A stretch of 19,017 bases of DNA from a bacterium (GTDB lineage Bacteria; Patescibacteriota; Saccharimonadia; Saccharimonadales; Saccharimonadaceae): assembly GCA_030428585.1 (NCBI GenBank), contig JAUIDL010000007.1:1-19017 (forward strand). The letters are read 5' to 3'. Below the pieces are notes generated by a model. It did not search any database and was not told the DNA's origin. It worked only from the letters and a program-made list of their open reading frames with translations. Shown here one piece after another: positions 7,456 to 18,662 of the stretch; within the stretch, counting starts at the first letter, position 1; each line of letters begins with the position of its first letter. The position numbers were made by a program, and so were the translations under genes.

Positions 7456-7484
7456 TTGATTATTTCTTAATTTATGCGCATAAT
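7456..7484 (+). promoter_or_regulatory. Promoter of the rpoBC operon
   Basis: TTGATT (7456-7461), a 17-bp spacer and CATAAT (7479-7484). Predicted start is about 7491. It is back to back with the promoter of the minus-strand gene. Confidence 0.7.
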
Positions 7485-7490
7485 GGTGAC

Positions 7491-7645
7491 TAAGAAGTAG
7501 TGTGGCCGTGGTTTCTTATGTCCTTCGCACAGTGTGGCAACTAGTGCGTGGACAATCGCGGTAAGGGAATCTTCGGCGCCAAAGACCCTTTCTCTGATCT
7601 AGACAGAGATAAATAACAATCTAACCGCGAGGACATAGTAGCCAT
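7491..7645 (+). promoter_or_regulatory. Structured 5' leader of rpoB, with element shared with the rpsL leader
   Basis: The leader is about 155 nt. Visible pairings: an upstream hairpin GTCC-ttc-GCAC / GTGC-gt-GGAC (7521-7553 region); then CGCGGT (7557-7562) with ACCGCG (7624-7629), enclosing AAGGG/CCCTT (7563-7567 / 7586-7590) and TCTCTG/CAGAGA (7591-7596 / 7604-7609), a three-way-junction-like fold. The closing strand abuts the probable Shine-Dalgarno GAGGA (7629-7633, 12 nt before the ATG). CGCGG can instead pair with CCGTG at 7506-7510, so two exclusive states are possible. The block GGTAAGGGA, CAAAGAC, CTTTC (7560-7592) recurs in order in the rpsL leader. An 8-codon frame (ATG 7518 to TAG 7544) is also present. 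Regulatory function is inferred. Confidence 0.55.
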
Positions 7646-10600
7646 ATGGCAACGAATAAACGTGCGAACACGAAGCGTGTTTTCTTTACTAAAGATGACA
7701 CCGCTCTCCCAATACCAAACCTAATTGACCACCAAAAAACCAGCTGGCGTGATTTCGTCGAAACCGGACTCGGCGAGATTTTTGCTGAGTTGAACCCAAT
7801 TGACGACTATACTGGTCAGAAATTGGCCCTGCGTTTTGGCAAGTACGAATTTCACGAACCAAAGAACAGCGAAATGGACGCCAAGGAAAACAACTTGACC
7901 TTTGACGCGCCACTGCATGCCATGGTTGAGCTGACCAACAAGGTCACCGGTGAAGTCAAGGAGCAGGAAATCTATTTGGGTGACTACCCATGGATGACTG
8001 ACCGCGGAACCTTTATTATCAACGGTACTGAACGTGTCGTTGTGTCACAGCTGATCCGTTCTGCCGGTGTATTCTTTACCGCCGATCGTGCGGCCACCCG
8101 TAACTATTACGGTGCCAAGTTGATTCCAGGTCGTGGTGCATGGCTCGAATTCGAGACCGCCAGCAACGGTGTTATCTACGTCAAGATTGACCGCCGCCGT
8201 AAACTGCCAGTGACGACGTTGTTCCGCGCCCTTGGGTACAACAAAACCTCTGAAATTAAAGATTTGTTTACTGAGATTGATACCGACGAAGTCAAATACA
8301 TCGAAGCCACACTCGATAAAGACCCAGCTCGCGGTACCAACGAAGCCTTGATCGAAGTCTACCGCCGTTTGCGCCCAGGTGACCTCGCCACTGTCGACAA
8401 CGCCAAGCAAATGATTGAACGCATGTTCTTTGACTTCAAACGTTTCGACTATAGCCGAGTCGGACGGTATAAATTGAATCAACGCCTGAGCCTTGAAGTT
8501 GCGAATACTACTGAAAACCGTGTGTTCCAAGTTAGCGACCTGATTGCGATTGTCCGTGAAATCATCCGCCTGAACAACACTCAAGAAGACGCCGACGACA
8601 TCGACGCGCTGTCGAACCGCCGCGTCAAATTGGTTGGTGAGCTGGTCGCCCGTCAATTCCGCGTTGGTATGCTGCGTATGCAACGAAATGCCATGGACCG
8701 TATGTCTATGTCTGACATCGAGAACGTTTCGCCAAACCAACTGATTAACGCTCGTCCAGTGGTCGCTGCCGTTCGCGAATTCTTTGCGAGTTCACAGCTG
8801 TCACAACTGATGGATGATACTAACCCGCTAGCTGAACTGGCGCACAAACGTCGCCTTAGCTCGATGGGTCCTGGTGGACTTAGCCGTGAACGTGCTGGCT
8901 TCGACGTCCGTGACGCCCACCCAACTCACTACGGTCGTCTGTGTGCCGTGGAAACGCCAGAAGGTGCCAACATTGGATTGGTATTGAACTTGGCTGCCTA
9001 TGCTCGAGTAAACGAGTATGGTTTTATTGAAACTCCATACCTAAAGGTAAAAGATGGTAAAGTCACCGACGAGGTTGTCTATCTGGACGCTTCTCAAGAA
9101 GCAGTCGAAGTGATTGCTGACGCGAACGCGCCACTCAACGACAACGGATCATTCCGTGACGAGCGTGTCTCTGCCCGTAATGGACTGTTGCCAGAACAAG
9201 TTGACGCCGGTGAAGTAACTTACATGGACGCTGCACACAAGCAGATTCTTGGTTCAACCGCCGCACTGGTCCCATTTGTTGAAAAGAACCGTGTTGACCG
9301 TTCATTGATGGCCTCAAGCATGCAGAAGCAAGCTGTGCCACTACTAAAGACCCAAGCGCCAACCGTTGGTACTGGTATTGAAGGCGTGATTGCCCAGAAC
9401 ACCAGTCAACTGGTCGTTGCTGAAGGTGCTGGTGAAGTTGTCCGTGCCGATGGTAACGAAGTTCACGTTAAATACAGTGACGGCGTCAAGATTTACGAGC
9501 CAATGCACTTCGTGAAATCAAACGATGACCGTTCAATCAACCAAAAGGTGATTGTCGAACGTGGTCAAAAGGTCAAGAAGGGCGACATTCTGATTGAAGG
9601 TGCCTCTGTTGCTGATGGTGAAATTGCCCTCGGTAAAGACCTCTTGGTCGCCTTTATGCCATGGTCTGGCTACAACATGGACGACGCGATCGTTCTGAGC
9701 CAACGCCTTGTCCAAGATGATACTCTGACCAGCATCAACATCAAGGACTACACCGTTGAAGTTCGCGAAACCAAACTGGGTCCAGAAATTGTCACCCGTG
9801 ACATTCCAAATGTCTCAGAAGAATCACTGCGTCACCTCGACGAGAGCGGTATTGTCCAGCTCGGTTCTGAAGTTAAGGCCGGCGATGTCTTAGTCGGTAA
9901 GATTACGCCTAAGGGTGAGCAAGAGCTGAGTTCTGAAGAACGACTGCTTCGCGCTATCTTTGGTGAAAAAGCTAAGGACGTTCGTGACACCTCACAACGC
10001 ATGAACAACGCCGCTGGCGGTAAAGTTGTCGGGGTGAAGATCTTTAGCCGTGAAAATGGTCACGAGTTGAAGGCCGGTGTCCTGATGCAGATTCAAATCT
10101 TCGTCGCTCAATTCCGTAAGATTTCTGTCGGTGACAAGCTGGCGGGTCGTCACGGTAACAAGGGTGTCGTCGCTCGTATTCTGCCTGTCGAAGACATGCC
10201 GTTTATGGAAGACGGAACACCAGTTGACGTGATCTTGAACCCACTGGGCGTCCCAAGCCGTATGAACATTGGTCAGTTGTTTGAAACTCACCTTGGTATG
10301 GCTGCGCGAGCCCTGGGCTACCGCGTTGCAACTCCTCCGTTCAACGGAATTTCTGATGAAACAATCTCAGACGAGCTCGAAAAAGCTGGCTTTGCCCGCG
10401 ATGGAAAGAGCCAATTGTTTGACGGCCGTAACGGTGAACCATTTGAAGAGCGCACCACAGTTGGTGTGATGCACATGCTGAAGCTGCACCACATGGTCAG
10501 CGACAAGATCCACGCTCGTTCAACTGGTCCGTACACTATGGTGACGCAACAGCCACTGGGTGGTAAGGCGCAAAACGGTGGACAGCGCTTTGGTGAGATG

Positions 10601-11002
10601 GAGGTGTGGGCACTGGAAGCTTACGGTGCTGCCGCAACCCTTCAGGAAATGTTGACCATCAAGTCTGACGACGTCTACGGACGTGCGAAAGCCTACGAAT
10701 CGATTATCAAGAACGAACCGATTGTTGGTCCAAAACTACCTGAATCATTCAACGTCCTCGTAAAGGAACTCCAAGGCCTTGGCCTACGTGTCGACCTGCT
10801 GGACGAATCTGAAGACGCAGTGGTTGACGCCGAGCAAGTGATCGGAAATGTCATCAACGGCCAGCCAGTCTCTGCCCAAGCGGTTGAAGATGGTGAAGAA
10901 GTTGAAACAGTACTGGATGAAGCCGATGAACTTGGTGACATCGAAGACGGTGTCAGTATCCAGGACATTGATGAAATAGAAGAAATTAAGGAGGAGGCGT
11001 AA
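7646..11002 (+). CDS. rpoB: DNA-directed RNA polymerase subunit beta
   Basis: At 1118 aa this is a short beta subunit, without the large lineage inserts of E. coli (1342 aa). Landmarks are the rifampicin-region block SSQLSQLMDDTNPL (382-395) continuing to HKRRLSSMGPGGLSRERAGF; DAHPTHYGRLCAVETPEG; the catalytic-centre segment MPWSGYNMDDAI; GRHGNKGVVA; and the C-terminal anchor MEVWALEAYGAAATLQEMLTIKSDD. The last 60 or so residues are very acidic. The start at ATG 7646 follows a weak, distant Shine-Dalgarno (GAGGA) inside a structured leader. The stop is one base before the rpoC start, so translation is probably coupled. Proline is almost always CCA, and Asp/Asn/Phe favour C-ending codons, a sign of high expression. 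Confidence 0.98.
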   Translation: MATNKRANTKRVFFTKDDTALPIPNLIDHQKTSWRDFVETGLGEIFAELNPIDDYTGQKLALRFGKYEFHEPKNSEMDAKENNLTFDAPLHAMVELTNKVTGEVKEQEIYLGDYPWMTDRGTFIINGTERVVVSQLIRSAGVFFTADRAATRNYYGAKLIPGRGAWLEFETASNGVIYVKIDRRRKLPVTTLFRALGYNKTSEIKDLFTEIDTDEVKYIEATLDKDPARGTNEALIEVYRRLRPGDLATVDNAKQMIERMFFDFKRFDYSRVGRYKLNQRLSLEVANTTENRVFQVSDLIAIVREIIRLNNTQEDADDIDALSNRRVKLVGELVARQFRVGMLRMQRNAMDRMSMSDIENVSPNQLINARPVVAAVREFFASSQLSQLMDDTNPLAELAHKRRLSSMGPGGLSRERAGFDVRDAHPTHYGRLCAVETPEGANIGLVLNLAAYARVNEYGFIETPYLKVKDGKVTDEVVYLDASQEAVEVIADANAPLNDNGSFRDERVSARNGLLPEQVDAGEVTYMDAAHKQILGSTAALVPFVEKNRVDRSLMASSMQKQAVPLLKTQAPTVGTGIEGVIAQNTSQLVVAEGAGEVVRADGNEVHVKYSDGVKIYEPMHFVKSNDDRSINQKVIVERGQKVKKGDILIEGASVADGEIALGKDLLVAFMPWSGYNMDDAIVLSQRLVQDDTLTSINIKDYTVEVRETKLGPEIVTRDIPNVSEESLRHLDESGIVQLGSEVKAGDVLVGKITPKGEQELSSEERLLRAIFGEKAKDVRDTSQRMNNAAGGKVVGVKIFSRENGHELKAGVLMQIQIFVAQFRKISVGDKLAGRHGNKGVVARILPVEDMPFMEDGTPVDVILNPLGVPSRMNIGQLFETHLGMAARALGYRVATPPFNGISDETISDELEKAGFARDGKSQLFDGRNGEPFEERTTVGVMHMLKLHHMVSDKIHARSTGPYTMVTQQPLGGKAQNGGQRFGEMEVWALEAYGAAATLQEMLTIKSDDVYGRAKAYESIIKNEPIVGPKLPESFNVLVKELQGLGLRVDLLDESEDAVVDAEQVIGNVINGQPVSAQAVEDGEEVETVLDEADELGDIEDGVSIQDIDEIEEIKEEA

Positions 11003-11003
11003 T

Positions 11004-14000
11004 ATGTCACGAGTAGTCACAAACGCAAACAATGGTATCGCTGACTTTGACGCCATTCGTCTGAGCGTCGCCAGCGCCGACGATATCCTAAAATGGAGCT
11101 ACGGCGAAGTTACCAAACCGGAAACCATCAACTATCGAACCCAAAAACCAGAGCGTGACGGTCTGTTCTGTGAACGAATTTTCGGTCCAGTCAAAGACAT
11201 CAACCCGCACGACTCGAAACTAAAAGGTGTTCGTTCTCGTGAAGCAGCGGTCGACAAAAACGGTGACCTAGTCACCAAGTCAATCGTTCGTCGTGAACGC
11301 ATGGGCCACATCCAACTCGCAAGCCCTGTGGCACACATCTGGTTTATGCGTGGTACCCCAAGCGCAATGTCATTGCTCCTTGGCATCACCGTCCGTAACC
11401 TCGAACGTATCGCGTACTTTGCGACCTACGTTATCTTGAGTGCTGACGAAGAAGCTCGCGACAAGTTCCTTGCTGATCTGGAAGCCGAGACCGAGGCTGG
11501 TCGTGTTGCAATCAAAATGCGCTACGAAAAAGAAGCTGAGGCTGAAGGTGCCGATGTTAAGGCGTTGGCCGAAGCTCAGACTCGAGAAATCGAAGAGCTC
11601 GAAGAGAACTACACTACCAAGAAGACGCAACTGGAAAGCCTTGCGAAGCGTGCGCTGCTGAGCGAAGTCGACTACCGAAACTTGCCAGAAGAGTACCAAG
11701 ACTTGATCGAAGTCGGCATGGGTGGTCTTGCCCTTAAGGCACTGCTGGATGACATCGACCTCGACAGTTTGATTGCTGAACTAACCGAAGAAGCTGAAGC
11801 TGCCAAGGGTCAACGTGAAAAGAAGATCCTGAAGCGACTGAAGGTCCTCGAGGGTATGCAGGCAGCAGGTATTCAGCCAGCTGCTCTGACGATGACTGTT
11901 CTACCAGTGATTCCTCCAGACCTTCGTCCAATGGTGCAATTGACCGGTGGTCGATTTGCAACCTCTGACCTAAACGACTTGTACCGTCGTGTCATTAACC
12001 GTAACAACCGTCTCAAAAAGCTGATCGAATTGAACGCGCCGGAAGTTATCCGTCGTAACGAAATGCGTATGCTGCAAGAAGCAGTTGACGCGTTGATCGA
12101 CAACTCAGCAGCTCGTGGTGGCCGCGCGGTCAACGCAACTGGTGGTCGTCGTCGCCTGAAATCAATTAGTGACATGCTAAAGGGTAAGCAGGGACGATTC
12201 CGTCAGAACTTGCTGGGTAAGCGTGTGGACTACTCGGGACGTTCAGTTATCGTCGTTGGTCCTAAACTCAAGATTGACGAATGTGGTCTGCCAAAGCAGA
12301 TGGCACTCGAACTCTTTAAGCCGTTTGTGATCAACTGGTTGATTACTGGTGAATACGCTCACAACATCCGTTCAGCGACTCGTTTGATCGAAGCTGGTGA
12401 AGCGGTTGTCTGGGACGCCCTTGATGCCGTGATTGAAGGTAAGTACGTGCTGTTGAACCGTGCACCATCACTGCACCGTCTGTCTATCCAGGCCTTCAAA
12501 CCTCGTTTGGTCGAAGGAAAAGCCATCCAACTGCATCCATTGGTGGCAAACGGATTTAACGCCGACTACGACGGTGACCAGATGGCGGTCCACCTTCCAC
12601 TGAGTCGCCAAGCGCAACAAGAAGCTCGTGAGCTGATGAGTGCAACGGCTAACTTGTTGAAACCAGCTGATGGTGCGCCGGTACTTTCGATTGCGCAGGA
12701 TGTCGTGCTGGGTAACTACTACTTGACCTACGACAAGCCAAGCGCACAAACTGAAGACGTCAAAGCCTACAGTTCTGTCTATGAAGCAGAAATGGCCTAC
12801 GAAAACGGCCACATCCAACTACAGACACCAATTCGTGTCTGGGCAAAGGGTGAGGCTCGTAACACTACTCTCGGCCGTGTCTTCTTTAACGAAATTCTGC
12901 CAGAAGACTATCCATTTGATAACAACGTTCAGACCAAGAAGCAACTAAAGAAGGTTCTTAACACCATCTTCTTACAATACGGCGCAGAAGTTACCGCCCA
13001 AACGGCTGACCGCATGAAGGGTCTTGCCTTCCGCTTTGCAACGATCGCCGCGGTATCGACCGGTAAGGATGACTACGTTATCTTTGAACAAACCGACGAG
13101 TTCATCGCTGAAGGTGATGCCAAGTCTGCCCTGATTAGCGAACAGTACAACCAAGGGTTGATTACCGACGAAGAACGCTATAACTTGACCGTCTCAAACT
13201 GGCGTGGTGTGACGCGTAAGCTCGAAAACTTCATGAAGGAAGAGCTGAAAGAAATGGACACCAGCGTCTCTGTTATGGTTAACTCTGGTGCTCGTGGTGA
13301 CATCTCAAACGTGATGCTTGCCAGCGCCATGATTGGTATCATGGTCGACGCAACCAACCGTGAGATTGAGCTGCCGATTCGCTCGAGTTACAAGAAGGGT
13401 CTGTCGAGCCTTGAGCAGTTCGTGGCCACTCGGGGTTCACGTAAGGGGCTGATTGACACCGCCCTCAAGACCGCCGACTCTGGTTACTTGACTCGTCGTC
13501 TGGTTGACGTGTCTCAGGACGTGTTTACACTGGAAGACAATGACGGTGAAGATGATGGATTTACTATCTACCGCAACGAAACCGAACTAACAATGATCGA
13601 CTTTGGTAACCGTCTGTATGGACGTTACGCCGCTGAAGATATCGCTGGACACGTTAACGCTGGTGAATTAATCACCCGTGCAATTGCGAATGCGATTGAA
13701 GACGACAAGGATATTACCGAAGCCAAGATTCTGTCCGTCCTTTCAACCAAAAACCTTCGTGGTGTGCCTCGTAAGAGCTACGGTATCGACATGTCAACGA
13801 ACCAATTGGTTGCCAACTCTCAGCCTGTCGGTGTGATCGCCGCACAGTCTGTCGGTGAACCGGGAACCCAGCTGACGCTGCGTACCTTCCACCAAGGTGG
13901 TGTCCAGGAAAGTGACATTACCCAGGGTCTGCCTCGTGTTGAAGAGTTGTTTGAAGCCCGTACACCAAAGGGACAAGCGTACATTACTGAAGTATCTGGT

Positions 14001-14852
14001 GTGGTTGAGCAATGGGAAGATGGCAAGAAATACGTTGTCCAAGTAACCCCAGAAGCTGGCCACGTTGAAAAAATCGCCCTCGAAGGTCGTGACATCAACG
14101 TCAAGGCTGGTGCTGAGGTGAAAGCTGGTGATGTACTCGCAACTGGTGAGAGCGAATCTCGCCCAATCGTTGCGCCATTTGACGGCGTCGTCGAATTTAC
14201 CGACGAACACATCGTCTTGGCAGCGAACGCGAGTTCACCAGTTCGTTACGAAATTCCTGGCAACATGCAACTGTTGGTCAAGAGTGGTGACATTGTCGCT
14301 GCTGGTGACCGCCTGACGTCTGGTTCATTGAACCTGCACGACTTGATGCGCCTCAAGGGTATCGAATCCACACAACGCTACATCATCAACGAAGTGCTCC
14401 GTATTTACGCAGCCCAAGGTCAAGACGTTGCTGACAAGCATCTCGAGATCATCGTTCGTCAGATGTTTAGCCGCGTGCAAATCGAAGACCCAGGTGACAG
14501 CTCATTTGTGACGGGTGACATCGTATCAAAGGCTGCTGTTGTTGAAGCCAACGACGAACTAACTGCCGCTGGTAAAGAACAAGTGACCTACACCCAGCTC
14601 CTCCTCGGTATCACCAAGGTCTCGATCTGGTCAGACAGCTTCCTGTCAGCCGCATCGTTCCAAGACACGACTCGTGTTCTGATCAACGCTGCTGTCAGTG
14701 GCCGCGTCGACCGTTTGCACGGACTGAAAGAAAACGTCATCATTGGACGGAAGATCCCAGTCGGTACCGGTGTCGACAGTGCAACTGCCCTCGACACGCT
14801 GGACGAAGATACTGCCAAAGAAATCGAAGAAGACCTCGAATTCGCCGCGTAG
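11004..14852 (+). CDS. rpoC: DNA-directed RNA polymerase subunit beta'
   Basis: The 1282-aa beta' subunit carries the active-site Asp triad and the clamp. It starts one base after the rpoB stop, with a strong Shine-Dalgarno (AAGGAGGAGG, 10988-10997). Landmarks: ERDGLFCERIFGP (50-62); RRERMGHIQLASPVAHIW (96-113); a coiled, Glu/Lys-rich segment (about 145-215); the switch-2 region LLGKRVDYSGRSVIVVGP (403-420); the catalytic motif NADYDGD (519-525), which reads NADFDGD in nearly all polymerases; NSGARGD (760-766); LIDTALKTADSGYLTRRLVDV; and the trigger-loop segment GEPGTQLTLRTFHQGGV. The cysteines of both usual zinc sites are absent: none between Cys56 and the RRERMGH motif, and none in the NDGEDDG and VPRKSYG regions. 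I see only two Cys in the whole protein. The F-loop after NSGARG is also divergent. A terminator follows. Confidence 0.98.
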   Translation: MSRVVTNANNGIADFDAIRLSVASADDILKWSYGEVTKPETINYRTQKPERDGLFCERIFGPVKDINPHDSKLKGVRSREAAVDKNGDLVTKSIVRRERMGHIQLASPVAHIWFMRGTPSAMSLLLGITVRNLERIAYFATYVILSADEEARDKFLADLEAETEAGRVAIKMRYEKEAEAEGADVKALAEAQTREIEELEENYTTKKTQLESLAKRALLSEVDYRNLPEEYQDLIEVGMGGLALKALLDDIDLDSLIAELTEEAEAAKGQREKKILKRLKVLEGMQAAGIQPAALTMTVLPVIPPDLRPMVQLTGGRFATSDLNDLYRRVINRNNRLKKLIELNAPEVIRRNEMRMLQEAVDALIDNSAARGGRAVNATGGRRRLKSISDMLKGKQGRFRQNLLGKRVDYSGRSVIVVGPKLKIDECGLPKQMALELFKPFVINWLITGEYAHNIRSATRLIEAGEAVVWDALDAVIEGKYVLLNRAPSLHRLSIQAFKPRLVEGKAIQLHPLVANGFNADYDGDQMAVHLPLSRQAQQEARELMSATANLLKPADGAPVLSIAQDVVLGNYYLTYDKPSAQTEDVKAYSSVYEAEMAYENGHIQLQTPIRVWAKGEARNTTLGRVFFNEILPEDYPFDNNVQTKKQLKKVLNTIFLQYGAEVTAQTADRMKGLAFRFATIAAVSTGKDDYVIFEQTDEFIAEGDAKSALISEQYNQGLITDEERYNLTVSNWRGVTRKLENFMKEELKEMDTSVSVMVNSGARGDISNVMLASAMIGIMVDATNREIELPIRSSYKKGLSSLEQFVATRGSRKGLIDTALKTADSGYLTRRLVDVSQDVFTLEDNDGEDDGFTIYRNETELTMIDFGNRLYGRYAAEDIAGHVNAGELITRAIANAIEDDKDITEAKILSVLSTKNLRGVPRKSYGIDMSTNQLVANSQPVGVIAAQSVGEPGTQLTLRTFHQGGVQESDITQGLPRVEELFEARTPKGQAYITEVSGVVEQWEDGKKYVVQVTPEAGHVEKIALEGRDINVKAGAEVKAGDVLATGESESRPIVAPFDGVVEFTDEHIVLAANASSPVRYEIPGNMQLLVKSGDIVAAGDRLTSGSLNLHDLMRLKGIESTQRYIINEVLRIYAAQGQDVADKHLEIIVRQMFSRVQIEDPGDSSFVTGDIVSKAAVVEANDELTAAGKEQVTYTQLLLGITKVSIWSDSFLSAASFQDTTRVLINAAVSGRVDRLHGLKENVIIGRKIPVGTGVDSATALDTLDEDTAKEIEEDLEFAA

Positions 14853-14870
14853 TCATCTGACTGTCTTACA

Positions 14871-14899
14871 AAAGGCTCCCTCATCGTAGGGAGCTTTTT
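14871..14899 (+). terminator. Terminator of the rpoBC operon
   Basis: AAAGGCTCCCT (14871-14881) pairs with AGGGAGCTTTT (14888-14898) around the loop CATCGT, with one G-T wobble, and ends in a T run. Confidence 0.92.
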
Positions 14900-14905
14900 G
14901 GTTGA

Positions 14906-14934
14906 TTGACAATTAATAACATTAGTGGTATAAT
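14906..14934 (+). promoter_or_regulatory. Full-consensus sigma-70 promoter of the micro-operon
   Basis: TTGACA (14906-14911), exactly 17 bp, then TATAAT (14929-14934): every base matches consensus. Predicted start is about 14941, with a 40-nt leader ending in the Shine-Dalgarno GAGGAGGA (14969-14976). Confidence 0.9.
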
Positions 14935-14980
14935 GAAAAAGTAAGATTCATCGCCATTCATCTATCCTGAGGAGGAATAC

Positions 14981-15220
14981 ATGGCGACCGATGACAGCAC
15001 CTACCAGCCCACACCCGGATCGCGACCGCCCGCCGCAGTTGACCTGCGGGGCACCATGGGAGCGGCGAGTTCCAGAGCCGGTCGTTACGGCACCGATCCA
15101 GTACCGCAAGCCGGTAATGGTGTCGTTACCTACGACGCAAGGACCAAGAGCGATTCGCCTCAGCCGCCCGACTGCCTCGGCGCAGGACGGTATTACAACG
15201 ACTCTGTCGAGGAGGAGTGA
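14981..15220 (+). CDS. Small orphan protein, Pro/Gly-rich, 79 aa
   Basis: I do not recognise this protein. It starts at ATG 14981, 4 nt after a strong Shine-Dalgarno, and is driven by a consensus promoter, so it is very probably translated. The protein is rich in Pro, Gly, Ala, Asp, Ser and Tyr, with a single Cys near the C-terminus (in PPDCLG), no hydrophobic stretch, and an acidic end (SVEEE). It is probably disordered or folds only with a partner. The three GAG codons of the EEE tail also form the Shine-Dalgarno of the next gene, and its TGA stop overlaps that gene's ATG. Codon choice (CCC/CCG for Pro, GCC, CGG) is clearly unlike the flanking rpoC and rpsL genes, which use CCA and CGT. An overlapping frame at 14991-15242 lacks a Shine-Dalgarno and was rejected. 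Confidence 0.75.
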   Translation: MATDDSTYQPTPGSRPPAAVDLRGTMGAASSRAGRYGTDPVPQAGNGVVTYDARTKSDSPQPPDCLGAGRYYNDSVEEE

Positions 15221-15381
15221 TGACCAGAGACTCAGCGCCTGATGCGGACGAGTTCCGTGCAACCCATCTCGATGACCCGGACATCCCCCCGGGGATGTTC
15301 GAGGCCATGACAAGGCCGATTCAGGTATCCCCGACCAACGAGGAGCGTCGGCTCGAACGTTTCATCCCTGGGGACGAGTAG
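15220..15381 (+). CDS. Very small orphan protein, acidic, 53 aa
   Basis: ATG 15220 overlaps the stop of the preceding gene (TGATG, 15218-15222) and follows a GAGGAGGAG Shine-Dalgarno. The frame runs 53 codons to TAG 15379-15381. The protein is acidic, with segments such as DADEF, LDDPDIPPGMFEAM and EERRLERFIPGDE. It has no Cys and no membrane segment, and I recognise no domain. Translational coupling, a shared promoter and a terminator 18 nt downstream make it the second member of a two-gene unit. The two products may act together, possibly as a small complex; this is inferred from gene arrangement alone. Confidence 0.65.
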   Translation: MTRDSAPDADEFRATHLDDPDIPPGMFEAMTRPIQVSPTNEERRLERFIPGDE

Positions 15382-15399
15382 GGCATCAGCCCGTGATCA

Positions 15400-15444
15400 G
15401 GCCCGTTGACCAATCGTCAGCGCTCGCCCGGTCACGGGCCTTTT
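15400..15444 (+). terminator. Terminator of the micro-operon
   Basis: GGCCCGTTGACC (15400-15411) pairs with GGTCACGGGCC (15430-15440), with one bulged T, followed by TTTT (15441-15444). Confidence 0.9.
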
Positions 15445-15451
15445 CATTGGC

Positions 15452-15480
15452 TTGCAAAATCGACACATTTTTAGTAAAAT
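15452..15480 (+). promoter_or_regulatory. Promoter of the str operon
   Basis: TTGCAA (15452-15457), a 17-bp spacer and TAAAAT (15475-15480). Predicted start is about 15487. Confidence 0.75.
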
Positions 15481-15486
15481 AACAGG

Positions 15487-15635
15487 TGAGTTTCCGCTAG
15501 AGACAAGGTGAACCGTGTACAAGACACCTCGTACGTCTAGCCTCGCTGGTAAGGGATGCTGAACCGAACCGGCAAAGACGCGTCTTTCAAGGCGCGAGTT
15601 AATCATTAATCAAGATAAGGAACGTATAGTTTACT
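15487..15635 (+). promoter_or_regulatory. Structured 5' leader of rpsL, with element shared with the rpoB leader
   Basis: The leader is about 149 nt. GCTAGA/TCTAGC (15496-15501 / 15536-15541) with inner AGGTG/CACCT (15506-15510 / 15525-15529) forms a first hairpin. CTCGC (15542-15546) can pair with GCGAG (15594-15598), enclosing a CTGG/CCGG pairing and an AAAGA-CGCG-TCTTT hairpin (15574-15587). The ordered blocks GGTAAGGGA (15548-15556), CAAAGAC (15573-15579) and CTTTC (15584-15588) match the rpoB leader. A weak Shine-Dalgarno AAGGAA (15617-15622) lies 13 nt before the start codon. Function is inferred; autogenous control by a ribosomal protein or a common regulator are both possible. Confidence 0.55.
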
Positions 15636-16049
15636 ATGCCTACAGTTAATCAATTGGTGCGCAAACCACGCCAAATTGCTGGAAAAAAGAGTAAATCTCC
15701 AGCCCTTGGCCGTATTCACAATGCACTAAAGGTCCGTTACTACGATCAGAACGCCCCACTGAAGCGCGGTGTTTGTATTAAGGTGACCACCAAAACTCCA
15801 AAAAAGCCTAACTCAGCCCTTCGTAAGGTCGCTCGTGTCCGTTTGACCAACAACCAAGAAGTCTGGGCATACATTGGTGGCGAAGGTCACAATCTCCAGG
15901 AACACGCCGTTGTGCTGGTCCGTGGTGGTCGTGTGCCGGACCTTCCAGGTGTGCGGTATCACATCGTCCGTGGTGCCCTTGACCTTCAAGGCGTCCAAAA
16001 CCGTAAGAAGGGTCGCTCGAAGTACGGCGCCAAGAAGGAAGGTAAGTAG
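15636..16049 (+). CDS. rpsL: 30S ribosomal protein S12
   Basis: A 137-aa S12, the decoding-site protein of the small subunit. It has the universal N-terminus (VNQLVRKPR), a linker about 13 residues longer than in E. coli (of the kind also seen in Firmicutes), [20 protein letters not shown] (46-64) with the first decoding loop, GEGHNLQEH (82-90), and the second loop [14 protein letters not shown] (96-109). Asp102, matching the residue modified by RimO in E. coli, is kept. The residue before it, Lys88 in E. coli and a classic streptomycin-resistance site, is Pro101 here. It is the first gene of the str operon; rpsG begins 2 nt after its stop. Confidence 0.98.
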
Positions 16050-16051
16050 TC

Positions 16052-16531
16052 ATGCCACGCAAGAAAACTGTCAGCCTCCAACGTCGTCTGAGTCCAGACC
16101 GCAAGTACCAAAGTGTATTAGTACAACGCCTGATCAACAAGTCTATGCTTGATGGTAAAAAACTGCTCGCAGAACGCGCTGTCTACAAAGCACTGGAAGC
16201 TGCGGCCAAGAAAGTCGATAGCGAAGACCCACTGGAAGTATTTGAAAAAGCACTCAAGAATGTTGCGCCTAACTTTGAAGTTAAGTCACGCCGTGTCGGC
16301 GGTGCGAACTACCAGATTCCATTTCCTGTCGCTGGTCACCGTCAACTCCACTACGCGTTTAGCTGGTTAGTCCAATCAGCCCGTGCGCGTAACGGCATGC
16401 CATACGAACAGCGCTTGGCGCTAGAAATCGTTGACGCGTACAACGAAACCGGTGCTGCCTTCAAGAAGAAGGAAGACACCCACAAGATGGCCGAAGCGAA
16501 CCGTGCGTTCGCACACTTTGCCCGCGGGTAA
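16052..16531 (+). CDS. rpsG: 30S ribosomal protein S7
   Basis: A 159-aa S7, which nucleates assembly of the 3' major (head) domain of 16S rRNA and contacts the E-site tRNA. It shows the family segments INKSMLDGKKLLAERAVYKAL (28-48), DPLEVFEKALKNVAPNFEVKSRRVGGANYQIPF (about 59-91), RLALEIVDAYNETGAAFKKKEDTHKMAEANRAFAHF (about 121-157). Length is typical. The Shine-Dalgarno lies in the last codons of rpsL (GAAGGAAGG, about 9 nt before the ATG). The gene is co-transcribed with rpsL and fusA. Confidence 0.98.
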   Translation: MPRKKTVSLQRRLSPDRKYQSVLVQRLINKSMLDGKKLLAERAVYKALEAAAKKVDSEDPLEVFEKALKNVAPNFEVKSRRVGGANYQIPFPVAGHRQLHYAFSWLVQSARARNGMPYEQRLALEIVDAYNETGAAFKKKEDTHKMAEANRAFAHFARG

Positions 16532-16571: not shown

Positions 16572-18662
16572 ATGGCTCAAAAAGACGTCCCACTAAAGGA
16601 CTATCGCAATATTGGTATTATTGCCCACATCGATGCGGGTAAGACGACCACCACCGAAGGTATTTTGTACCGAACCGGTATTAGCCACAAAATTGGTGCC
16701 GTTCACGAAGGTGAAACGACGACTGACTGGATGGCTCAGGAACGTGAACGTGGTATCACGATTACTTCTGCTGCCGTGACCGCCTTCTGGAAGGGTCACA
16801 AGATTAACATCATCGACACCCCAGGTCACATCGACTTTACGGTTGAGGTTGAACGTTCACTCCGTGTCCTTGACGGCGCGGTGACCGTCTTCGATGGTAA
16901 AATGGGTGTCGAAGCACAAACCGAAACTGTCTGGCGCCAGGCCAACAAGTACGGCGTGCCTCGTATCTGTTTCATCAACAAGATTAACCAAATCGGTGGT
17001 GACTTTTACAAGTCCCTCGATTCAATTCACAACCGTCTGTCAAAGCACGCGCTACCTATTCACTTGCCAATCGGCTTTGAAAAAGACATCAACGGCGTTG
17101 TTGACCTCGTTGACATGACCGTGTACACCTATGACGACTTTACTGACCACGAACTCAAGACCAGCAAGGACATTCCTGCTGACATGGTCGAAAAGGTAAA
17201 GAACGCCCGCAGCCTATTGGTTGAAGCAGCGGTTGAAGCTGAAGACGAACTATTCGAACGCTACCTTGAAGAAGGTGAGGAATCGATTACTGTTGAAGAA
17301 CTACGTCGAGCACTGCGTAAACGTGTGTTGGCTGGTGATTTCTTCCTCGTGACTGGTGGTGACGGACGTGGCGTTATCGTTGAAAAAGTTCTTGACCTGG
17401 TTATGGAATACTTGCCATCACCACTCGATATTGGTGCTGTTCAAGGAACAAACCCAAAGAGTGGCGACGTTGTCGAACGTCAACCTGACGCCAGCGAACC
17501 GTTGTCTGCCTTGGCCTTCAAGATTGCGACTGACCCATTCGTTGGCCGTCTGATCTTCGTCCGTGTCTATAGTGGAAAATTGACCGCTGGAAGCTACATC
17601 CTAAACACCACAACCGGTGAAAAGGAGCGTGTTGGCCGTATCGTTCGTATGCACGCCGACAAGCGTGAGGAAATCGACTCAGTTGGCGCTGGTGACATCG
17701 CCGCAGTCGTTGGTCTCAAGGGCACCTTTACTGGCCACACGTTGACTGACGCGGCGAACCCAATTCTGCTCGAATCGATTGAATTCCCAGAACCACCGGT
17801 TTCGATTGCGGTTGAACCAAAGACTAAAGCTGACCAAGAAAAAATGGGTATTGCTCTGCAGCGTTTAGCTGAAGAAGACCCAACCTTCCGCATTCACACT
17901 GATGATGAAACGGGACAGACGATTATGTCTGGTATGGGTGAGCTTCACCTCGAAATCCTGATTGATCGTATGAAGCGTGAATTTAACGTCGAAGCAAACG
18001 TTGGTGAGCCACAAGTTGCCTTCCGTGAGACCATCCGTGGTGTCGCTGAAGCACAAGGTAAGCACGCCAAGCAATCAGGTGGTCGCGGTCAGTACGGTGA
18101 CGTTTGGATCCGTTTCGAGCCGACCGAATCTGGTGAAGGCTTCGAATTCGCTGATGAGATTAAGGGTGGTGTGGTTCCGCAAGAGTACCGCAAGCCAGTC
18201 GAAAAGGGTATTCATGACACATTGGAGGGCGGTGTTATCGCTGGTTATCCAATGATCGGTGTCAAAGCAACCCTGTACGACGGAAGCTACCACGATGTTG
18301 ACTCGAGCGAACTTGCCTTTAACCTCGCCGGTGTTTTGGCGGTTAAAGCCGGTATTCCAAAGGCGAAGCCAGTGATTCTCGAGCCTGTGATGAAAGTCGA
18401 AGTGTCAACTCCTGAAGACTTCATGGGTGACATCATCGGCGACCTTAACTCGCGCCGTGGCCGTATCGACGCCATGGAAGACATTCCTGGTGGCGCCAAG
18501 TTGGTCCGTGCCTTTGTGCCGCTAGCAAACCTCTTTGGTTACACGAACGACATCCGTTCGATGAGCCAAGGACGCGCTGCTTCAACCATGGAGCTGGCCC
18601 AGTACGAAGAAGTACCACCAAACGTTGCTCAAGAAATCATCGAGAGCCGAACGAACAAGTAG
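16572..18662 (+). CDS. fusA: Translation elongation factor G, with unusual G4/G5 motifs
   Basis: A 696-aa EF-G of normal length, the GTPase that drives translocation and, with RRF, ribosome recycling. Seen in order: P-loop [12 protein letters not shown] (18-29); switch [10 protein letters not shown] (59-67); DTPGHIDFT (82-90); then domain II, domain III (GMGELHLEI), domain IV ([12 protein letters not shown]) and domain V ([14 protein letters not shown]). The fourth GTPase motif, normally NKMD, is NKIN (136-139), and the fifth, normally GSA(F/L)K, reads VTGGD (260-264). Both contact the guanine base, so this is a notable departure. AAAGGGA (16556-16562) lies 9 nt before ATG 16572. It is the last gene of the str operon; no tuf follows, and a terminator comes next. 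Confidence 0.97.

Follow-up and report, generated by a model that had tools for sequence, protein, structure and literature searches.

The stretch of DNA considered here (‘the window’) is 19,017 nt of the forward strand of contig JAUIDL010000007.1, from a genome of 697,248 bases, incomplete (87% complete), of a member of the Saccharimonadaceae (assembly GCA_030428585.1), and within it rpoB and the rpsL-rpsG-fusA operon each follow a long leader, of 155 nt for the former and 149 nt for the latter. Two unrelated structured leader RNAs, each serving its own operon, rpoB(-rpoC) or rpsL-rpsG-fusA, by feedback on translation initiation, is the interpretation that we regard as probable. The genes and predicted promoters concerned are the following.

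7456..7484, plus strand: promoter-like site of rpoB, TTGATT-17-CATAAT (consensus scan)
7646..11002, plus strand: rpoB (list of open reading frames (ORFs); homologues)
15452..15480, plus strand: promoter-like site of rpsL, TTGCAA-17-TAAAAT (consensus scan)
15636..16049, plus strand: rpsL, encoding uS12 (ORF list; homologues)
16052-16531, plus strand: rpsG, encoding uS7, 2 nt after rpsL (Pfam)
16572-18662, plus strand: fusA (Pfam)

The promoter-like sites end 6 nt 5′ of the leaders. A first-pass annotation had drawn attention to the length of both leaders, to an imperfect hairpin at the 5′ start of each, and to three blocks present in the same order in the two, GGTAAGGGA (7560-7568 for rpoB, 15548-15556 for rpsL), CAAAGAC (7580-7586 and 15573-15579) and CTTTC (7588-7592 and 15584-15588). 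All of this is borne out, the hairpins by folding. It went on to suggest a cis-regulatory RNA element common to both operons, and of that suggestion one half has survived: both leaders are very probably structured RNAs that regulate in cis, and they show compensatory changes among relatives, but a shared element that ties the operons together is not supported. The parts of the rpoB leader are these.

7492..7594, plus strand: rpoB leader RNA core, match to model R2 (E 5.2e-19; covariation)
7494..7497, plus strand: P0 5′ strand (GAAG), right at the predicted transcript start, pairing with CUUC
7506..7513, plus strand: P1 5′ strand CCGUGGUU (covariation, folding)
7520..7530, plus strand: P2 5′ strand (covariation, folding)
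7535..7539, plus strand: conserved P2 loop UGGCA, candidate kissing partner of GCCA at 7578-7581 (suggestive)
7544..7553, plus strand: P2 3′ strand (covariation, folding)
7554..7561, plus strand: P1 3′ strand AAUCGCGG (covariation, folding)
7563..7590, plus strand: P3 hairpin, AAGGG-AA-UCUU / loop CGGCGCCA / AAGA-CCCUU, containing most of GGTAAGGGA and CAAAGAC
7571..7574, plus strand: P0 3′ strand CUUC, overlapping the P3 stem

Relatives keep this arrangement, their rpoB leaders having AAGAAGUAGUG at the predicted start, then P1, P2 with its loop UGGCA, and P3 with AAUCUUCGGCGCC. In an alignment of 13 of them (A2) each of the 14 pairs of P1 and P2 is changed on both sides in one sequence or more, and 74.3% of cells are paired, where shuffles give 59.4% and the slid structure no more than 49.7%; P1 is far better kept than P2 (88.6% and 59.8% paired), and the structures tested, for both leaders, were taken from folds of the same sequences, which favours them over the slid versions. 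Model R2, of whose 13 sequences our own leader is one, has matches in 86 of 151 family genomes (87 places), and the 30 loci checked from among these places all precede rpoB and never rpsL. In one genome, G056, there are two rpoB starts, each with a leader, on separate contigs (G056:C3 and the end of G056:C2; L126 and L127), the two copies being 88% and 87% identical to the first 300 residues of the window's protein, and perhaps reflecting a second strain in the assembly. Its second leader copy had been considered as a possible new context and was ruled out, for it too precedes rpoB.

Since CUUC is also part of the P3 stem, P0 and upper P3 are mutually exclusive in this genome and its close relatives. 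How real is P0? Within the family 48 of 49 rows have GAAG at the start and CUUC downstream, the 49th being misaligned at its start (alignments A3 and A4 include weak chance rows, and A4 was read on the first 49 of its 62 rows). Other families of the order have a shorter leader, GAAG-UAGUG-P1-GU..U-CUUC, in which P0 closes around a small internal loop, and 17 of 18 order-level stretches carry the rpoB leader. Other orders of the class mostly read GAGG-AYGC-UUAAA...UUUAG-AAA..-CCUC at the same place; there, 28 genomes have a match, and in stretches from 22 of them four standard P0 pairs form in 19, three form in two, and one lacks the block, with P0 in L248 and L273 assigned as GAGG/CCUC by eye, correcting the script. 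When leaders were anchored by hand, at 21 P0 anchors selected by eye, all 21 formed four standard pairs (18 GAAG/CUUC, one GAAG/CUUU and two GAGG/CCUC). Thus the outermost helix is GAAG·CUUC in the window's own order and mostly GAGG·CCUC in other orders, a compensatory change, and this exchange of A-U for G-C between orders is the strongest sign that P0 is probably real. Outside the class, 16 rpoB upstream stretches drawn from the phylum's other classes (L250-L265) showed no such leader, whether by the motifs or by R2 (best E 0.36).

A kissing interaction of the P2 and P3 loops in the rpoB leader is suggestive: when UGGC of the former is set by eye against GCC(A/G) of the latter, the variable pair is mostly U-A or U-G, with C-G in L060 and L124, a C/A mismatch in L105, and GGGA in place of GGCA in L107. 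GCGAGG stands 5′ of rpoB in 13 of 17 genus genomes. Pairing of the loop sequence UCUUCG with CGAGGA was tried as a conserved contact and is not supported, being hardly gene-specific, and L055 and L056, which have UCUUCA, keep CGAGGA. Separately, UCGCGGU on the 3′ side of P1 (7556-7562) is complementary over 7 nt to ACCGCGA (7631-7637) beside the rpoB ribosome-binding site, and in the full-length fold of our own genome's leader this pairing is an alternative to P1.

The rpsL leader is built otherwise.

15487..15573, plus strand: rpsL leader RNA core, match to model R1 (E 1.2e-15; covariation)
15488..15495, plus strand: conserved GAGUUUCC, start of the predicted transcript, able to pair with the rpsL ribosome-binding site
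15496..15501, plus strand: P1 5′ strand (covariation)
15506..15510, plus strand: P2 5′ strand (covariation)
15511..15524, plus strand: P2 loop, conserved GUGUACA(AGA) (comparison of relatives)
15525..15529, plus strand: P2 3′ strand (covariation)
15536..15541, plus strand: P1 3′ strand (covariation)
15545..15573, plus strand: P3 hairpin with conserved loop AUGCUGA (15556-15562), containing most of GGTAAGGGA
15574..15587, plus strand: P4 hairpin AAAGAcgcgUCUUU, of unconserved sequence, with CAAAGAC and CTTTC (folding)

The rpsL leaders of relatives open with GAGUUUCC, followed by P1, by P2 (loop GUGUACA) and by P3 (loop UGCUG), while at the place of P4 most of 14 folded genus leaders have some hairpin, the sequences differing. 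All 20 pairs in an alignment of 13 leaders (A1) are changed on both sides in one sequence or more, and 85.3% of its cells are paired, compared with 62.2% for shuffles and no more than 44.8% once the structure is slid by 1-3 columns. Model R1, built on the genus and with the window's leader among its 13 sequences, matches once in each of 25 of the 151 family genomes, in all 25 before rpsL. By eye, 35 of the 36 rpsL upstream stretches from the family have GAGUUUC; the remaining one is truncated by the end of its contig. In other families of the order, 14 stretches upstream of rpsL include one with GAGUUUC (L226) and 8 with a different leader motif. This third rpsL leader (L217, L219, L221-L225 and L227, with L133 resembling it by eye) appears unrelated to the two described here, reads approximately GUAAUCUGAGCC - hairpin with loop AGGCA - GCAGCAGUAGAUUAC, lies just 5′ of rpsL and close after rpoC, and matches no Rfam family among those searched.

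In the rpsL leader the start block GAGUUUCC can form 5-8 pairs with the rpsL ribosome-binding site. Compared with its possible pairing to the rpoB site, this is longer in 13 of 17 genomes, equal in three and shorter in one, and the full-length leader of the window folds with the start block on the ribosome-binding site.

What then of the likeness between the leaders? Should one ordered element co-regulate the rpoB and rpsL operons, its blocks would be expected in both leaders beyond this genome, in which they are indeed exactly present; the pattern GGTAAGGGA-N6-30-CAAAGAC has just two occurrences in the genome (697 kb), one in each of these leaders. A slightly looser pattern has matches in 8 of 100 genomes, the window's own included, and in none of 16 of the same genus, and at its 8 places outside the own genome neither an rpoB start nor rpsL lies in the flanks covered, up to 1.5 kb on each side. 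Of 30 rpsL upstream stretches (300 nt) two have GGTAAGGGA, our own and L022, there at the ribosome-binding site, and one, our own, has CAAAGAC. In 30 rpoB upstream stretches of the same length GGTAAGGGA is again confined to our own and CAAAGAC is present in three; however, the variant GGTTAAGGGA is present in 12 and CAAAGA, anywhere in the stretch, in 18, from which it follows that AAGGGA...CAAAGA is a common part of the genus rpoB leader and not of the rpsL leader. The blocks are, then, not conserved in related leaders as a shared element demands, though the structure of each leader is.

Nor do they do the same thing in the two RNAs. In rpoB GGTAAGGGA and CAAAGA occupy the two arms of one hairpin, P3, with AAAGA pairing back to its UCUU. 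In rpsL GGTAAGGGA belongs to the 5′ arm of another P3, unlike that of rpoB, and the next hairpin, P4, is made by CAAAGAC/CTTTC, so that the AAAG/CTTT pairing that was supposed to be kept in both leaders in fact differs. Since the blocks fall in different structures of two different RNAs, the string common to both leaders is a coincidence, and the idea of one element linking RNA polymerase synthesis to the S12-S7-EF-G operon is not sustained, its blocks being unconserved and sitting in different structural parts.

For ordered shared blocks the score of the two leaders of the window is 37, compared with a mean of 21.4 and a maximum of 43 for dinucleotide shuffles; 10 of 1000 dinucleotide-shuffled pairs and 5 of 272 cross-genome leader pairs reach it, a mild excess for a pair chosen by eye. 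Over 17 genus genomes, same-genome pairs score 29.3 for k 5, as against 22.6 for cross-genome and 23.0 for permuted pairs, a value that none of 5000 permutations equalled (for k 4 and k 6 the counts are 10 and 8 of 3000), and the excess is absent both from shuffled leaders (60 rounds, largest 4.1 versus 6.7) and from control offset pairs (71 pairs, largest 3.1 versus 6.2). But it does not hold for k 7 (582 of 3000). With equal 150-nt stretches the ordered blocks of the genus give 43, 0 and 168 of 4000 for k 4, 5 and 6, and when shared words are counted without regard to order in such stretches the excess is gone (521, 2798 and 1965 of 4000 for k 5, 6 and 7). In 14 other family genomes ordered blocks are weak (145, 302 and 769 of 4000 for k 4, 5 and 6), three of 17 genome pairs (G030, G032 and G021), whose leader start or fit was not located, having been omitted from this family test. 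The ordered-block statistic is a measure of our own choosing and strongest at k 5, and the same-genome excess of ordered 5-mers in the genus is unexplained, perhaps chance. With the blocks missing from 16 same-genus genomes and belonging to different structures, and with no checked place of one leader model adjoining the other gene, a common co-regulatory element is scarcely credible, and on the combined results of exact patterns, block counts, shuffles, permutations, offset controls and the family replicate we reject it.

Both leader RNAs begin at a predicted transcription start, both have helices with compensatory changes and both have their own gene downstream wherever checked. Most likely both control translation by feedback, with RNA polymerase or its beta subunit as the presumed effector for rpoB and uS7 or uS12 for rpsL. 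No terminator-like site lies within either leader in a scan of the window, and the match in the first codons of rpoB (7666-7682) is weak, which makes control of translation initiation (or of decay) likelier than attenuation. For rpsL, a product protein, uS7 or uS12, would bind the folded leader and thereby promote pairing between GAGUUUCC and the ribosome-binding site. For rpoB there may be a switch between P0 and upper P3: polymerase or its beta subunit would tip the balance between these two, and access to the ribosome-binding site GCGAGGA would change with it. That the leader in this way lets RNA polymerase gauge its own amount, its binding or that of beta deciding between P0 (GAAG or GAGG) and its displacement by P3, is a tentative proposal that we would place well short of probable.

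Several points weigh against feedback by two such leaders. Their transcription starts are predicted ones, and single-sequence folding is unremarkable (z -1.00, -0.65, -2.08 and -0.94). Pairing of the rpoB loop is longer with its own ribosome-binding site than with that of rpsL in 8 of 17 genomes, equal in 7 and shorter in two. Under strict filters R1 reaches only its 25 of 151 family genomes, and several genera of the family have a reduced rpsL leader with the P3 hairpin alone. L247 is the order-level stretch without the rpoB block. The P0 exchange may have been a single event in an ancestor of the other orders, and when 18 order- and class-level leaders were folded with downstream flank P0 was in the minimum-energy fold of 11 (25 nt) or 9 (40 nt), an earlier fold test having used stretches cut at P0, which favours P0. 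Finally, no mimicry of ribosomal RNA (rRNA) that would name a ligand was found with either model.

Could the conserved starts AAGAAGUAGUG and GAGUUUCC simply be initial transcribed sequences suited to promoter escape or to 5′-end stability, with helices that only protect the mRNA? The start blocks do begin 6-7 nt past the -10 hexamer in the window, and the lack of a terminator-like site in either leader fits as well. Yet the P0 pairing survives a double change between orders, which a promoter signal would not require, and there are conserved loops far downstream (UGGCA, CUUCGGCGCC, GUGUACA and UGCUG), so that we consider this unlikely. Somewhat less likely again is that the rpoB leader acts on polymerase during transcription, by antitermination or pausing, rather than on translation. 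For this the comparison would be put RNA; in its favour are the position of the leader at rpoB, on the first bases to be transcribed, its presence in several orders of the class, and a terminator-like match just inside the gene. However, that match is weak, such matches in the window are about as common as in shuffles (23 versus 19.4), and the likeness to put RNA would be one of mode.

The presence of compact conserved loops, and the fact that protein ligands are presumed, might bring small-molecule riboswitches to mind for both leaders. This is very improbable, for they are gene-specific at core machinery genes, with one match per genome except in G056, and without an Rfam match: the window gave a single match, sub-threshold and outside the leaders, and 18 leader loci gave none at E <= 1. 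A search with S12 gave 80 loci, 30 of which were searched with each model. Among six loci titled Saccharibacteria R1 matches L129 and L128, and R2 matches L128, L133 and, at E 0.075, L129; R1 also has a chance-level match (E 0.16) in a Neobacillus locus, L145.

Ribosomal leaders often, though not always, resemble the rRNA site of their ligand. With filters off, R1 and R2 were run on three 16S loci and two 23S loci; no 23S was obtained from the window's own genome, and no 16S from two of five genomes. On the sense strand of these five loci neither model has a convincing match, and R1 has none with E below 2. R1 does align to the 16S antisense strand, taking in GUGUACAAGAC and then UUGCUGA (L268 2885-2960 (-), L269 1605-1680 (+) and L267 2824-2899 (-)), at 14.3 bits and with E 0.013 in one 16S locus or 0.077 in the five rRNA loci. 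On this account free 16S rRNA might be sensed by the rpsL leader through base pairing, the leader loops GUGUACAAGA and UUGCUGA being complementary, in order, to a region that we take to extend from about h43 to the decoding site, uS7 territory. But the E-value is borderline, the loop flanks in other family genomes depart from the 16S complement, reduced leaders are without the P2 loop, and the three 16S genes compared are alike in the region and so offer no variation in which covariation could appear; such sensing is most improbable.

Set beside known systems, the rpsL leader is like the ribosomal leaders (r-leaders), of which Eckert and Weinberg 2020 (PMC7247131) report 20, in being a covarying 5′ untranslated structure before a ribosomal protein gene. 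Table 1 of that paper lists neither a uS12 nor a uS7 leader, nor any from Saccharibacteria or Patescibacteria, and its main text, the supplement being outside the search, has no mention of Saccharibacteria, Patescibacteria, candidate phyla or rpoB. The str operon of E. coli, according to the review PMC10931766, has the same content, rpsL-rpsG-fusA, and there too the model is autogenous translational control, with uS7 the known repressor and its site between rpsL and rpsG. There the site is intercistronic, whereas here structured RNA precedes rpsL; a uS7 site of the E. coli type cannot exist here because rpsL ends at 16049 and rpsG starts at 16052, and with a gap of 2 nt a leader before rpsL would be its natural replacement. 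For rplJL-rpoBC of E. coli the same review gives control by L10(L12)4 and, separately, autogenous control of rpoBC. Feedback on RNA polymerase genes is thus known there, but in the window, unlike in E. coli, rpoB has its own leader and predicted promoter, and by Pfam the adjacent upstream genes are not rplJ or rplL: the five ORFs upstream have ClpP, a weak MtN3-like match or nothing, with no L10 and no L7/L12. There is likewise no Rfam match to the L10 leader in the window. The literature searched, to which supplements and most subscription papers did not belong, describes no structured leader in Saccharibacteria and neither of these rpsL and rpoB leaders, and the same is true of the accessible text of PMC11665869, PMC8040213 and PMC11109978. 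With no Rfam match and no description found in that literature, both leaders are rated as new RNA families of a known kind.

Saccharibacteria are host-dependent and have very small genomes (0.5-1.7 Mb among those listed). Two compact, gene-specific leader RNAs, one of them traceable over several orders, make the matching of polymerase to ribosome synthesis in them directly testable, and, if polymerase does gauge its own amount through the rpoB leader, these host-dependent ultrasmall bacteria would, with the rpsL leader as well, have separate RNA feedback loops for the two syntheses. The case is also an example of chance likeness, within one genome, between RNAs that are different.

One further feature of the locus lies in the gap between rpoC and the rpsL leader (14853-15486). 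Two ORFs of about 80 codons (14981-15220 and 14991-15242), without a Pfam match, come after a perfect promoter match, TTGACA-17-TATAAT with TG (14906-14934), and this match sits just after a terminator-like hairpin of the minus strand.

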